64,000 nucleotides of DNA from Antedon mediterranea (Eukaryota > Echinodermata > Crinoidea > Comatulida > Antedonidae). The DNA lies in the NCBI RefSeq assembly GCF_964355755.1, contig NC_092674.1, positions 27,950,001-28,014,000 on the forward strand. The letters run 5' to 3'. Both the position numbers and the translations under genes were made by a program. The notes beneath the pieces are model-generated. The model saw nothing but the letters and a program-made list of their open reading frames with translations. It was not told where the DNA came from and ran no database searches. Shown one piece after another: positions 54,645 through 62,136 of the stretch (positions within the stretch are counted from its first letter, which is position 1; each line of letters begins with the position of its first letter).

Positions 54645-56015
54645 TTATTCGTACATAAGATAGCGAATGATTTGCTTTGGTAGTGGAAGCGAACTTAACT
54701 TTGATAAGTCATTTCGGCCAAAATAGTCGCGAATAAACAACCTGGAGAGATGTTTCAAAGACCGGGGAGTATCGTTCATTGTAATCAGGTGTGATCTTAG
54801 AGGCTCTTGCAGCTTCTCTGGAATGTTGCCATTGCTGTCATAAAGACAAACAATATCTGATCCTTCAATCACAACACTCGCTGTCTCTGATATGTATGGT
54901 AAACCAATCAGAAGTGGTAGGAGGGTAAATGGGTCATCTCGACTGAAACTTAATGTCCAGACGGCTCCGTTGTTAATAAGAATCCTTAATTTTTCGCCAC
55001 ACATGCTATCCATGGCTTCCAAATCGTTATTGAAGAAGCTTTGCAACTTCAGCAAGACGTATTGCATCGGTGTTTCCCCACTTTCAGTCTGCGCATTTGG
55101 ATTCGCTCCATATTTGATTAATAACCGGAGCATGTCGGTGTCGTCACACATGGAGCATGCTCTGTGGATTGGTTGACATTTACGATGATTACATGAATTG
55201 ATGTCAGCACCGTGAATTAGAAGTAGTTTGGCGATCTCAAGGTTTCCTTGTGCCGCAACTCTGTGTAGAGGAGTGTTCAGTTGCGAATCGCTCAAGTTCG
55301 GATCCGCGCCATGTTTCAGAAGCAACTCAACAATTCCCTTTTCTTCACCGACGACTGCTAGTCGAAGAGGAGTCACACGATTCCTTGACGGAGGTATTGT
55401 GATAACATTTGGATTCGCACCGTACCGTAGTAACAGGAAGACAAATAAGATATTTCCAGTCTGTGCAGCGATATGTAGAGGCGTCATTCCATTTCGGTCG
55501 CGTACATCGGAATCGGCCCCATATTTCAACAGAACTTCGAAACAGTCTGGTAAATCCGATCGCACCTGAAAAATTTCGTGCCCAAAGTGGCGATGTTTGT
55601 AGTTAGGATTAGCGCCAAATTTTAGCAGTCGTTCAACAATGTCTGTATGTCCTTTGTATAAAGCAAGATGCAAAGCGGGGCAACTGGTCATGTCCAGCGC
55701 GTTGACGTCAGCACTGTGATCCAGAAGAACGGTGAGAGCATCACGACTGCCATATCGTGCTGCGATGTGGAGAGGTCTGAAACCACACTTGTCTGATAGC
55801 TCGATATCCGCGCCGTTTTCTATCAAGCACATCATGTAGTCCGGTTTGTTTTTATACACAGCATGGTGGATTGGCCGCAGCTGCATTGAGCTCTGAGGTT
55901 GGTTGACATCAGCTCCTTGTTTTAAAAGCTCTTGCAACCTGCTGACTGGTTGCCCGCCATTGATGACGTCTATCAACCCTTGAGATGTCAGCGGAGGATC
56001 TGCTGCGGCTTCCAT
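54645..56015 (-). CDS. Ankyrin-repeat and SOCS-box protein (ASB family), 456 aa
   Basis: ASB proteins are substrate receptors of Elongin B/C-Cullin 5 ubiquitin ligases. A single open coding exon runs from MEAAADPPLTSQ to IIRYLMYE. Eight or nine ankyrin repeats cover about residues 43-340, with clear cores such as RPLHIAARYGSRDALTVLL, TPLHIAAQTGNILFVFLLL and TPLHRVAAQGNLEIAKLLL. The last 40 residues form a SOCS box: the BC-box part RSLKHLSRLFIRDYFG, then LPLP (the Cullin 5 motif) in LSSLPLPKQIIRYLMYE. A non-coding first exon ending at the GTAAGT donor at about 56947 probably splices to the acceptor at 56050. No frameshift. Which vertebrate ASB it corresponds to cannot be told from here. Confidence 0.92.
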   Translation of the reverse strand: MEAAADPPLTSQGLIDVINGGQPVSRLQELLKQGADVNQPQSSMQLRPIHHAVYKNKPDYMMCLIENGADIELSDKCGFRPLHIAARYGSRDALTVLLDHSADVNALDMTSCPALHLALYKGHTDIVERLLKFGANPNYKHRHFGHEIFQVRSDLPDCFEVLLKYGADSDVRDRNGMTPLHIAAQTGNILFVFLLLRYGANPNVITIPPSRNRVTPLRLAVVGEEKGIVELLLKHGADPNLSDSQLNTPLHRVAAQGNLEIAKLLLIHGADINSCNHRKCQPIHRACSMCDDTDMLRLLIKYGANPNAQTESGETPMQYVLLKLQSFFNNDLEAMDSMCGEKLRILINNGAVWTLSFSRDDPFTLLPLLIGLPYISETASVVIEGSDIVCLYDSNGNIPEKLQEPLRSHLITMNDTPRSLKHLSRLFIRDYFGRNDLSKLSSLPLPKQIIRYLMYE

Positions 56016-57513: not shown

Positions 57514-57700
57514 CTTTTTTTTTTTTTTTTTTTTTTTTTTATTCAATCAAAACCAACAGCGATAAATACCGCCACTAACAGGTTTGAAACATAAAACAAT
57601 ACAACATCAAAAACGGTTAACAATAAAATACAGATAAAATATATATATATATATATAAAACATAGATTGGCATGCCATAAACAATTTCAATTAAAACAGG

Positions 57701-60700
57701 TTATGCAGGCTGTTCAAGAAGTGAACACATCATCGTCCTCTTAAAATAACCAAGTCTATCATTAAAAATATCGATATGATTGCTATTTAGATTATTAAAT
57801 GTATAAGGTAGTCTATGAAAAAGTCCCCTCTTAGTACAGTCGACACGGCTAAAAGGAATATGCAATAAATGTCTATTTCGTGTACGACCAGGAACATTTA
57901 AACTAAATAGTGAAATTAATGAACAGTCATATTTAGAATTTAAAATATTATATAAAAAAACCATATCAGATATCGTTCGACGATTGCTGACAGAATCAAT
58001 GGAAAAGGCAAAATTAACACAGTTATAAGACAGGAATCGAACAAACTTCCGTTGAACAGTGTCGATTCGACGGGCCTGACATGGAGAAATTGAATTGAAA
58101 ATTGCGGAACAATATTCAAGGTGAGGACGTATAATAGATTTGTATAAAGATAAAAGTGCCCTGCCGTCGTTCATAAACCTACAATTTCTCCATATTAAGC
58201 CCATCATTCTATTAGCTTTTGACAACACATGATTAATATGTGAACAAAAATTTAATTTACTATCAATAAAAATACCTAAATCTTTCCATACATAAACCAT
58301 CTCAAGATCATGTCCACTCAGATTATAATTGAAGAGCACAGGCCTTTTTTTAAGTGTTATAGATAAATATTTGCATTTATTAGCATTAAGTTTTATCCCC
58401 CACTTCTCCGTCCATTCCACGAGACCATCCAGATCCTCCTGAAGTGAAAAAGCATCCTGTGGAGTGGTAATCACTTTAAACAATTTCAGATCGTCAGCAA
58501 ATAAAAGAGACTCGGAATGATTAAATTTTAAAGGAAGATCGTTGATAAATAAATTAAACAAAAGCGGGCCCAGGATCGAGCCCTGCGGAACGCCCGATAA
58601 CACAGGGAGCCAATCAGATGTCTCTCCCCCAATGACAACACGCTGTTGTCTATTAGTTAAATAGCTTTTAAACCAACTTAACAGTGAACCGGATAAACCA
58701 AATTTTGAAAGTTTAAAAATAAGCAAATCATGGGAAACGGAATCAAAAGCCTTAGAGAAATCAGTGTAAATCACATCGCACTGCTTCTTGCTGTTAATTG
58801 CATCGTATGATGTAGCAAGAAGCAGTGCGAGGTTGGTTTGACATGATCTCCCAGAGACAAAACCATGCTGCCTAGGACTTAAAGCATTAGCAACATGTGA
58901 TGACAAACCATCATGCACAATGCGCTCAAAAATCTTAGACATAGTAGGCAATAACGAAATAGGACGATAGTTACAGATTAGTTTTTTGGGACCACTCTTG
59001 TGAATTGGGACAATATTAGCGTGTTTCCAAGATGAAGGAAAAACCCCAGAATTAATAGATAGCTGAAACAATTTGCAAAGCGGATAAGAGAGTGAGGAGG
59101 AGGCACCCTTTAAGACAACGTTACTAATCTGATCAATGCCAGTAGCTTTATTGATATCAATGTTACTAAGTGCCTTTTCCACAGAATGCTGATTCACAGA
59201 CAGAGAACTTAAGTTATCCACCGCATAGTCAGGAAGACCTGGATAGTCCCGGGGAACGTCCGGAGAAGGCTCACTGAAAAAAGAATGAAAATAAGAATTA
59301 AATGTGGTAGCTTTATCATAATTAGACTGGAATGAAATGTTATCGTGACTCATGACAGAAGGAAGATTATTTGACTTGTATTTAGTTTTCATCCAGCTCC
59401 AGAATCTTTTACTGTTAGTGACAATTTGCTTAGCCAAAGAGTCCAAGTAATCTTTGTACTTTTTATTGCACATTTTTTTAAAAGACGCGCGAGCAAATTT
59501 GAAATTACTTTGGGCTAACCGATTATTATTTTTTTTCAGATATCTATAATACTTTTCTTTGAGTTGAAGCGCACTTCTCAACTCATTGTCAAACCACGGA
59601 GGAAGCTTTCTGCGCTTTCTAATTTTAGGCACTGTGTCATTGACGGCAGCATTTAACAAATTATAAAACATATCCAAAGCTTCATTTAAATCACCTTCAA
59701 AATCAATTAAGACACTCCATGGAACACAGTTAAGAGTATTACATAGATTATTGACATCAAGTGCTTTAAAATTGTAAATTATACTTTTACGATTCAAATT
59801 ATCATTACTACAATTAACATCAAAATTTAAACGGAAATCAATTCTCAAAGATGAGTGGTCAGATAAAAAAATATCGTTAGCAGTATAGACTTTGTCGGAA
59901 ATGTTTTTACTACAAATAACAAGATCAAGCATTTTATCCATTCTTGTACAGTACGTATTGCATTGAAATAGGCCACAGCTAGAAAGCAATACATCAAGTA
60001 AGTGTTCTCCCATGGACTGAGCTGGAGCAGAATAAGGGTTGCTACTCCAATTAATTTCGGGCAGGTTGAAATCTCCTAGAATGAGGAATTCACTGTTTTT
60101 GTAGTAGAGCATAGCGATTTCCACAGACGAAGTAAAACGACGGAGGACATCGGGTGTAGCGTTTGGTGGTCTATAGAATAATCCAACAAGTAGGCTAATA
60201 CGCCGCTTTAGCTGAATCTCTATCCACATGAACTCCGTTGAATCACTTTCTAGGCGTTCCACTCGGTTACAGGTAAATTTGTTATTCACTAGCATCAGGA
60301 TACCACCACCGCGTTTATCAGTATCTCTATCGCGTCGAAATAAAGTGTAATTAGAAACGGAAAGTTCAGAATCGAGCACGTTGCAGTTTAACCATGTTTC
60401 CGTAAGTGCGACAATATCCAAATTGCTCTGAATTAGGTGTGCATTCAGATCTGAGTTGTATACGTCCATTTTATTCTTCAGGCTACGTACGTTTTGATAG
60501 TATACCTTAACTGAAGATGTCTGAGTATTACCTGGACCTGGATTCGATTCAACATCGCCACTTAAAAGAATACAGAATGTAACAGTGGAATTAGAATAGA
60601 GCAAACGTGGTGCACTGTAGATCTTCCTTGACGGTCTGCTGCTACGTTGGAATGCAACAACACTCGTAGTCGTACTGCTTTGACCGCATAGATACAAATT

Positions 60701-60877
60701 CCAACATTTACATACAACGATGCTAGGAATGTTGCAGCTTACCGGCTCAGAGTATCCATCGACTGGCCTTAGCCATTGATTTCTGGATGAAAATCCCATA
60801 TTAAAACTTGAAAAATAGAGGCCAAGAAATAAGTTCAAAATAAGTAGCGGCACACGTAGCCCGGTCGAACACATCAT
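57701..60877 (-). CDS. LINE ORF2-type polyprotein (2A motif, APE endonuclease, reverse transcriptase), 1058 aa
   Basis: Open without stops from MMCSTGLRVPLLIL. Residues 7-22 are hydrophobic, like a signal sequence. Residues 108-115 are DVESNPGP (60556-60533), matching the 2A consensus D-V/I-E-x-N-P-G-P, preceded by the usual hydrophobic-Ser-Gly run. An APE-type endonuclease follows: YYQNVRSLKNK (about 126-136), ALTETWLN (Glu160), LILGDFNLPEINW (Asp269, Asn271) and LSDHSSLRIDF (Asp340-His341). The reverse transcriptase has KATGIDQI, YRPISLLPTMSKIFERI, YTDFSKAFDSVSHDLL (Asp706), SGVPQGSILGPLLFNLFIND and LLFADDLKLF (Asp795/796). The C-terminal part has the family YKSIIRPHLEYCSAI motif. Jockey/CR1-like superfamily by motif order; clade uncertain. 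All catalytic residues are present, so the copy may be young. Confidence 0.93.
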   Translation of the reverse strand: MMCSTGLRVPLLILNLFLGLYFSSFNMGFSSRNQWLRPVDGYSEPVSCNIPSIVVCKCWNLYLCGQSSTTTSVVAFQRSSRPSRKIYSAPRLLYSNSTVTFCILLSGDVESNPGPGNTQTSSVKVYYQNVRSLKNKMDVYNSDLNAHLIQSNLDIVALTETWLNCNVLDSELSVSNYTLFRRDRDTDKRGGGILMLVNNKFTCNRVERLESDSTEFMWIEIQLKRRISLLVGLFYRPPNATPDVLRRFTSSVEIAMLYYKNSEFLILGDFNLPEINWSSNPYSAPAQSMGEHLLDVLLSSCGLFQCNTYCTRMDKMLDLVICSKNISDKVYTANDIFLSDHSSLRIDFRLNFDVNCSNDNLNRKSIIYNFKALDVNNLCNTLNCVPWSVLIDFEGDLNEALDMFYNLLNAAVNDTVPKIRKRRKLPPWFDNELRSALQLKEKYYRYLKKNNNRLAQSNFKFARASFKKMCNKKYKDYLDSLAKQIVTNSKRFWSWMKTKYKSNNLPSVMSHDNISFQSNYDKATTFNSYFHSFFSEPSPDVPRDYPGLPDYAVDNLSSLSVNQHSVEKALSNIDINKATGIDQISNVVLKGASSSLSYPLCKLFQLSINSGVFPSSWKHANIVPIHKSGPKKLICNYRPISLLPTMSKIFERIVHDGLSSHVANALSPRQHGFVSGRSCQTNLALLLATSYDAINSKKQCDVIYTDFSKAFDSVSHDLLIFKLSKFGLSGSLLSWFKSYLTNRQQRVVIGGETSDWLPVLSGVPQGSILGPLLFNLFINDLPLKFNHSESLLFADDLKLFKVITTPQDAFSLQEDLDGLVEWTEKWGIKLNANKCKYLSITLKKRPVLFNYNLSGHDLEMVYVWKDLGIFIDSKLNFCSHINHVLSKANRMMGLIWRNCRFMNDGRALLSLYKSIIRPHLEYCSAIFNSISPCQARRIDTVQRKFVRFLSYNCVNFAFSIDSVSNRRTISDMVFLYNILNSKYDCSLISLFSLNVPGRTRNRHLLHIPFSRVDCTKRGLFHRLPYTFNNLNSNHIDIFNDRLGYFKRTMMCSLLEQPA
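60533..60556 (-). other. 2A-like ribosome-skipping motif in the LINE frame
   Basis: Codes for DVESNPGP, with skipping expected between the last Gly and Pro (residues 114 and 115). If active, the first 114 residues are released from the endonuclease-RT part. The match to the 2A consensus is seen directly; activity is inference. Confidence 0.85.
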
Positions 60878-62136
60878 GTAGACTAGTCTACAGTATGCCT
60901 ACGTTGACTGGCCTAGTATCCACACAATGGGTAGCCTAGCGGAGCTCGATATGAACACGTCCGCTCACAACGAGAACTGTTGAGATATAATAATAAATGT
61001 CATTTTATTATGTACCCGACATACTGTGTTTTTACTACACTATATATTTTATATCATGGTAGATGCTTTTCATGAATTTATTATTATTTTTTTTATTTCT
61101 TTGCATTTATTACATTTTATTGTTTGCCAATATACAACCAGCAAACACTGGATGAGAACTTATATTTATGAAATTATATGGTTTTTTATTGATTATTTGT
61201 GTTTGTTTTTTATTTAGTTAATAATATAGGTAACTTTAATATATATTTTTTTATTTTTACCTGTAAATGTAAAGTTTAAATGAAAGTGTGTTGCTCTCAC
61301 GAAATGTTCAGATAACAATTGATCCCGGCACACAACGTTACGGGCTTAAAATATCATGATAAACAATACTTGTTCGTTGACCCTTTTAACAAATTAGTAA
61401 AAATAATCATTGTTATTTTTATCAATTATGTTAACTGTATACGTTTAATCTAAAAGATGAATCGTTCAAATGATTACACTAGCTCCCAAATTGTAGCTGT
61501 AGATAAATATATATTTTCCTAGTTGATAAGATAGATATTACTGCGTTGATAATGACAGCGTAGAGCTGACCTTCAGACTGTCTTTGGATACTAACCTATC
61601 ATTGTACACCTCGTATGACTCGAATTCACTGATTGTATTGTTTTTAATCGTTCTATACCAAAAGCGTTTTAATAAATAATTCAACCAACAAAAGAATCGC
61701 AACATTTCTTGTAGACTTTATTGGAATTGTATTAATGTAATGTAGGATAAATTCCTGTTGTATTTTGCACAAGTGCTGCTAATTCGGATACACTTAAAAC
61801 AGCCTGTGAGTAAGTATGTTCACATTTTCGCGTGCTTTAAATTGACATGTATCCTTTTAAATTATAACTTTTAATTTCGAGGTTACTTTAACGTTTAATG
61901 TATTACACCAAGAAAGAATTAAATTATCATTCTTTCCTGATTGCACCTAAATACCCTCGGGAGGTACGTAATATTAATGAAAAATCTAGAGTTTAAATGT
62001 TACGACAGCCATTATATAGGCCTATCTTGGTATCTTTATTTATATAGACAAAAACAATTGAATACATTTGCAGGCAAAGGCTGAATTGCTGTGTTTTGTT
62101 ACAATAAAAATATACACTATGTTGATTATAATGTTA
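60878..62136. other. LINE 5' flank and spacer
   Basis: 60878-61000 is GC-richer and is probably the LINE 5' UTR. 61020-62130 is AT-rich with no gene recognised. Confidence 0.4.

Follow-up and report, generated by a model that had tools for sequence, protein, structure and literature searches.

The element described here raises the question of what an APE-type LINE does with an N-terminal hydrophobic leader that a 2A skipping motif would detach from the endonuclease and reverse transcriptase (RT) behind it. It lies in a 64,000-nucleotide stretch of the Antedon mediterranea genome (NC_092674.1, positions 27,950,001 to 28,014,000), hereafter the window. An earlier note on this DNA, in which the strand was unstated, had proposed that the leader is released as a Cys-containing peptide with a possible secretion signal and a job of its own. 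The answer that we favour, at roughly even chances, is a disposable ER-targeting leader, cut off by a co-translational 2A skip, on a single-ORF APE-type LINE.

The whole element, a single-ORF APE-type LINE of about 3.46 kb, occupies 57515..60976 on the minus strand, as do all its features given below. Its 5' edge was placed at about 60976 by comparing copies with unlike flanking DNA, and its 3' end by the tail and the 3'UTR that the copies have in common. This 5' edge gives a 5'UTR of 99 nt (60878..60976) that is free of ATG, and the window element therefore has no upstream ORF1; the leader Met is the first AUG of the element, and an in-frame TAG precedes the start codon by 24 nt. ORF, Kyte-Doolittle and Pfam analyses confirmed the intact 1058-aa frame (60877..57701) reported previously, with a hydrophobic leader and DVESNPGP at residues 108-115, before the endonuclease. 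The leader, which would be released if the 2A skips, comprises residues 1-114 (60536..60877) and contains six Cys by count. Its hydrophobic signal-like segment (residues 9-21; 60815..60853) falls within a predicted helix at residues 8-26. A pre-2A block at residues 82-107 (60557..60634), made of a basic cluster and P..LLYSNSTVTF..LLSG and showing 50% similarity with L037-L039, precedes the 2A core (60556..60533). This core is a canonical D[VI]ExNPGP (StopGo) motif, and the skip is expected between G114 and P115. Downstream, an APE-type endonuclease (Exo_endo_phos, residues 143-343; 59849..60451) and an RT (RVT_1, residues 631-839; 58361..58987) both exceed the Pfam cut-off in one protein, which together with the 2A core supports the previous assignment to the 2A-bearing APE-type LINEs. 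The 3'UTR (57541..57700), common to other copies, ends in an A-rich tail of 26 A (57515..57540), and other copies have (TAAAA)n-like tails.

A genome search for further copies, suggested in the earlier note, was productive: the leader region is present in 12 full copies with 97-100% identity. Full and 5'-truncated copies of the family are dispersed in the genome with A-rich or simple-repeat 3' tails, and several contain frames of >1000 aa. Given this identity and these frames, the window element is, judged from sequence, a complete, young and recently active single-ORF LINE. Inspection of the copy ends with their 3' tails revealed no convincing target-site duplication. The layout, the PHD-bearing relatives and the 3' repeats suggest a CR1/L2-like clade. 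Elsewhere, at G000 C6:13758813-13839276, four copies of one truncated fragment of this family (query 314-943), each with one TAG, lie within 80 kb, which suggests segmental or tandem duplication. The window also contains, about 1.5 kb beyond the 3' end of the element, an intact 456-aa ankyrin-repeat ORF (54645-56015, minus strand) that by its look may be ASB (SOCS-box)-like.

The 2A motif extends well beyond this family. A degenerate DNA pattern for GD[VI]xxNPGP matched 176 sites in the 354-Mb genome versus 0 for the reversed control, so the motif is not due to chance. Together with loci recovered through similarity to the leader or to endonuclease-RT, 60 of the 176 sites, taken with 700 bases upstream, fall into some 25-30 LINE families in which the 2A is followed by an endonuclease, a PHD finger or a coiled-coil ORF1-like region. 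Among the about 100 sites of the 176 that were read, every identifiable downstream frame leads to one of these three LINE regions, and none to a host gene with a 2A. Since families found via the 2A pattern are unfit to prove 2A conservation, we added endonuclease-RT homologs and a sample drawn by endonuclease homology. The loci L053-L064, picked by endonuclease-RT similarity alone, all carry an in-frame D[VI]ExNPGP except L063, whose open frame begins inside the endonuclease and which has no NPG in any frame. The core, whose possible decay beside a conserved RT had been raised previously, is thus kept in families sampled by homology and not by motif.

Variation at this site was also recorded. 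Multi-copy families with S or A instead of E at p14 (L065-L067, L083-L085, L088-L090, L092, L093, L097-L099 and L111-L113) have the cores DISSNPGP, DISPNPGP, DVSLNPGP, DVSPNPGP, DIASNPGP and DVASNPGP, while p14 is Q, K or G in singletons and D in one pair. The active variants listed in the accessible part of PMC12846837 include none of these S, A, Q, K, G and D cores. In a further LINE family, which has several ~1142-aa frames (L132 with L150, G000 C1:21305593-21306663), one copy shows GDIHPHPGP at the 2A position, that is, p14 H and p16 H together; each alone is >95% active (PMC12846837). At L045 (G000 C3:15586814 region), a gypsy-like pol (RT, RNase H, integrase start) runs on without a stop into an in-frame LINE 2A and endonuclease, a nested insertion that gives a 1945-aa open frame.

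The other half of the layout is the hydrophobic start. Residues 9-21 of the window leader (VPLLILNLFLGLY) are its most hydrophobic 13-aa stretch, with a mean Kyte-Doolittle value of 2.12. As in a signal sequence, this N-terminal core follows a short n-region that is not acidic (charge +1). By inspection, we saw no clear (-3,-1) cleavage site. The N-terminus is signal-like, as previously proposed, but the term "secretion signal" is better replaced by "ER-targeting-like", and the segment could be a signal anchor. Taken alone, the window leader is marginal: its N-terminal hydrophobicity is modestly above residue shuffles (p=0.047) and not above nucleotide shuffles (p=0.14). The strength of the observation comes from 21 families taken jointly, all with Met-starting leaders of 76-246 residues. 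In each of these long-leader families, hydrophobicity within the leader peaks in a 13-residue stretch whose first residue is number 2-17, with combined p-values of 2e-26 for residue shuffles and 3e-14 for nucleotide shuffles, values that overstate the surprise because the families share ancestry and are not fully independent.

A different origin of this start is that it is not an ER signal, being either a by-product of a T-rich 5' end or another kind of targeting or membrane-binding segment, with only the 2A of importance. The first 25 codons of the leaders are indeed T-rich (29-45% T), and in 4/21 families frame 1 is matched or surpassed in hydrophobicity by frame 2 or 3. However, frame 1 is more hydrophobic than both others in 17/21, and the first 40 residues past the 2A are less hydrophobic than the leader start in 21/21; with the nucleotide shuffles, these tests favour selection on a protein property. 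ORFs without a 2A provide a further comparison. We drew a blind sample of 20 LINE frames from endonuclease searches, mostly of at least 950 aa and of 2A status unknown beforehand. Three carried a 2A: L147, of the L092 family, and L132 and L136, both new. Both new ones have a hydrophobic segment at the very start, with values of 2.25 at residue 3 in L132 and 2.80 at residue 6 in L136. Among the 2A-less frames with a Met, such a start was present in 2/10 (L131 and L141) and absent in 8/10, against 21/21 2A families (p=6e-6, a comparison in which the first Met of 2A-less second ORFs is uncertain). That 2A-less ORFs mostly start without the segment also speaks against a by-product. We consider this origin improbable; a composition artefact is disfavoured by the controls, yet the T-rich N-terminal codons contribute. 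As read from these sequences, an N-terminal hydrophobic segment is kept in about two dozen 2A families.

A few elements depart from this rule. In L114 and L095, a strong N-terminal segment is missing, and the hydrophobic stretch adjoins the 2A. L131 and L141 lack NPGP, yet carry a hydrophobic signal-like segment ahead of the PHD finger or endonuclease; these are possibly lineages in which the 2A was lost or was never present.

The distance between the two parts bears on the order of events at the ribosome. In all 22 long leaders, the 2A glycine lies 61-229 residues beyond the end of the hydrophobic segment, and 93 residues beyond it in the window element; L132 and L136, added to this set, have spacings of 83 and 80. 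As the ribosome exit tunnel holds 30-40 residues (PMC2978324), a long leader would have exposed its signal by the time of the skip. L071 and L075, two families with short leaders, have a spacing of only 9-10 residues, so that their signal would still be inside the ribosome at that point. Further observations argue against docking: these short leaders leave no room for it before the skip, and L131 and L141 have a hydrophobic start despite the absence of a 2A.

The short leaders lead to a second reading, dual targeting. The NLR proteins of Strongylocentrotus purpuratus are dually targeted by a signal that also acts as a 2A (Roulston et al., 2016, PMC4981915); as proposed for our LINEs, an N-terminal signal and 2A recoding part an ER-directed from a cytosolic piece. 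By analogy, skipping would be deliberately incomplete, with leader-fused endonuclease-RT partly exocytic and the rest cytosolic. This behaviour was measured for the SpNLR2A signals, which makes it the nearest published precedent (PMC4981915), and it would best fit L071 and L075, whose hydrophobic stretch adjoins the 2A and whose layout is closer to that of the NLRs than the window element is. The p14 variants S, A, Q, D, G and K of several families may also skip less well, and E14Q gave 26-56% (PMC12846837). In the NLRs, however, signal and 2A form one short N-terminal oligopeptide of host immune proteins, whereas in the window element they are 93 residues apart and do not share such an oligopeptide, an arrangement that we saw only in short-leader families such as L071 and L075; in long leaders generally, a wide gap between signal and 2A sets them apart from the NLR module. 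The window motif is moreover canonical, and an exported endonuclease-RT is of no evident use to a LINE. Dual targeting thus seems unlikely to us, although less so than the compositional origin discussed above.

We then considered the leader body. Counting each variant once in 19 families, omega is 0.80 in the leader bodies (95% bootstrap 0.54-1.34), indistinguishable from neutral, versus 0.41 (0.29-0.69) in the downstream protein, which is constrained (leader versus downstream, p=0.03). Omega is 0.45 (0.17-1.08; binomial p=0.04) over the 30 codons that lead up to the 2A. Purifying selection on leader and 2A, as envisaged in the earlier note, is therefore seen in these last codons and was not detectable in the body. 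In the window family, the leader shows 4 nonsynonymous and 0 synonymous changes among 8 copies, which gives no power for a selection test; L018 and L019 are frameshifted copies. Between families, leader bodies are 28% identical versus 29% after shuffling, while the endonuclease reaches 35%. Because the bodies are unalignable and near neutral while the downstream protein is constrained, the conserved parts are, on this comparison, the signal-like start and the 2A, and not the sequence of a secreted peptide. The constrained end has a recognizable pattern in many families, with a basic cluster at about -35 to -31, a Tyr at about -24 to -22, N(S/H)T(A/S)TF-like residues and L, I or V at -12. FMDV 2A is fully active only with >30 residues of its native sequence (PMC12846837), and we therefore interpret this block most readily as an extension of the 2A context.

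An effector function would give the body a role of its own, as a secreted or ER-resident peptide, and fast adaptive evolution would be compatible with it. Many leaders contain Cys and N-glycosylation sequons, and the duplicated Cys-containing unit of the L056-L060 leaders points the same way. Against this stand an omega indistinguishable from 1 and bodies that do not align between families. The leader bodies have no Pfam match and no PDB relative, and AlphaFold2 without an alignment predicted no confident fold beyond one N-terminal helix, the mean pLDDT being 48 in the window leader and 30 in that of L057. A conserved secreted protein was accordingly rejected as the main reading, the released peptide with its own job went unsupported, and an effector of any kind appears to us as doubtful as the compositional origin. 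The L056-L060 leaders, of 240-250 aa, contain an internal duplication of a ~65-residue unit with a Cys at each end (SCPGQY..VKW..VE.E.T.RSMNNFVQYFFYYF...FHPIP.YYSKCAIT), possibly a disulfide-bonded repeat.

We thus return to the ER-targeting leader, for which we infer skipping, ER engagement and a purpose as follows. The hydrophobic segment would emerge from the ribosome during synthesis of the remaining leader (93 residues to the skip site), and SRP and the translocon could then engage it. At DVESNPG|P, the leader would be let go into or onto the ER, and the ribosome would continue to make a signal-free endonuclease-RT in the cytosol beside the ER membrane. The leader body would serve mainly as spacer or passenger, and the ~30 residues ahead of the 2A as tunnel context. 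The purpose may be translation or particle assembly at membranes, in replacement of an ORF1 protein. The 2A reaction works on translocon-docked ribosomes, the downstream protein stays cytosolic, and the sequence directly before the 2A governs efficiency on docked ribosomes (PMC2978324). A membrane role was also proposed for L2-type LINEs from their ORF1 esterase (Schneider et al., 2013, PMC3905857). It is this work on docked ribosomes, the NLR signals and the esterase proposal that lead us to favour an ER-targeting leader removed after docking. A broader version, which we advance tentatively, is a guild of LINEs whose replication protein is made on ER-docked ribosomes: a signal leader of free sequence would bring the mRNA to the translocon, a 2A at least about 60 residues downstream would cut it off after docking, and endonuclease-RT would join the element RNA at the membrane of the ER or nuclear envelope, with no ORF1 protein involved.

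To our knowledge, no general link between 2A-bearing APE-type LINEs and an N-terminal signal-like segment has been described. The presence of 2A in APE-type non-LTR retrotransposons is itself already known: a 2013 study by Odon et al. reportedly found it in the Rex1, Crack, L2, L2A, CR1 and Ingi clades, several of the sequences being active. Like the window element, those LINEs have an in-frame 2A upstream of endonuclease-RT and a tendency to a single ORF (Odon et al., 2013). L1Tc of Trypanosoma cruzi belongs to another clade and host (Heras et al., 2006, cited in PMC4981915). The ORF1 esterase proteins of ZfL2-1 and CR1 have likewise been proposed to act in membrane targeting in L2/CR1-type retrotransposition (PMC3905857), but they are folded lipid-binding enzymes and not a signal-like leader with a 2A. 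Artificial polyproteins with an N-terminal signal and a 2A downstream share our layout, and a permissive 2A context leaves their downstream protein in the cytosol (de Felipe et al., 2010, PMC2978324); those are engineered reporters, while the window LINE is a natural element. What is new is the link of the 2A with a separate N-terminal signal-like segment across families, a rule that we found neither in the literature searched, with few subscription papers among it, nor in the accessible part of the ORF1 survey PMC4120745.

A layout common to about two dozen LINE families suggests a so far undescribed use of the secretory membrane by these elements. This touches on particle formation in ORF1-less LINEs and on the cellular site at which LINE proteins meet their RNA. 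If our reading is true, signal and 2A, being separately mutable, would offer a direct genetic handle on retrotransposition, and the spacing between them would be a natural experiment on skipping by docked ribosomes. Signal plus 2A would then be a general module, in LINEs as in the NLR genes of sea urchins.
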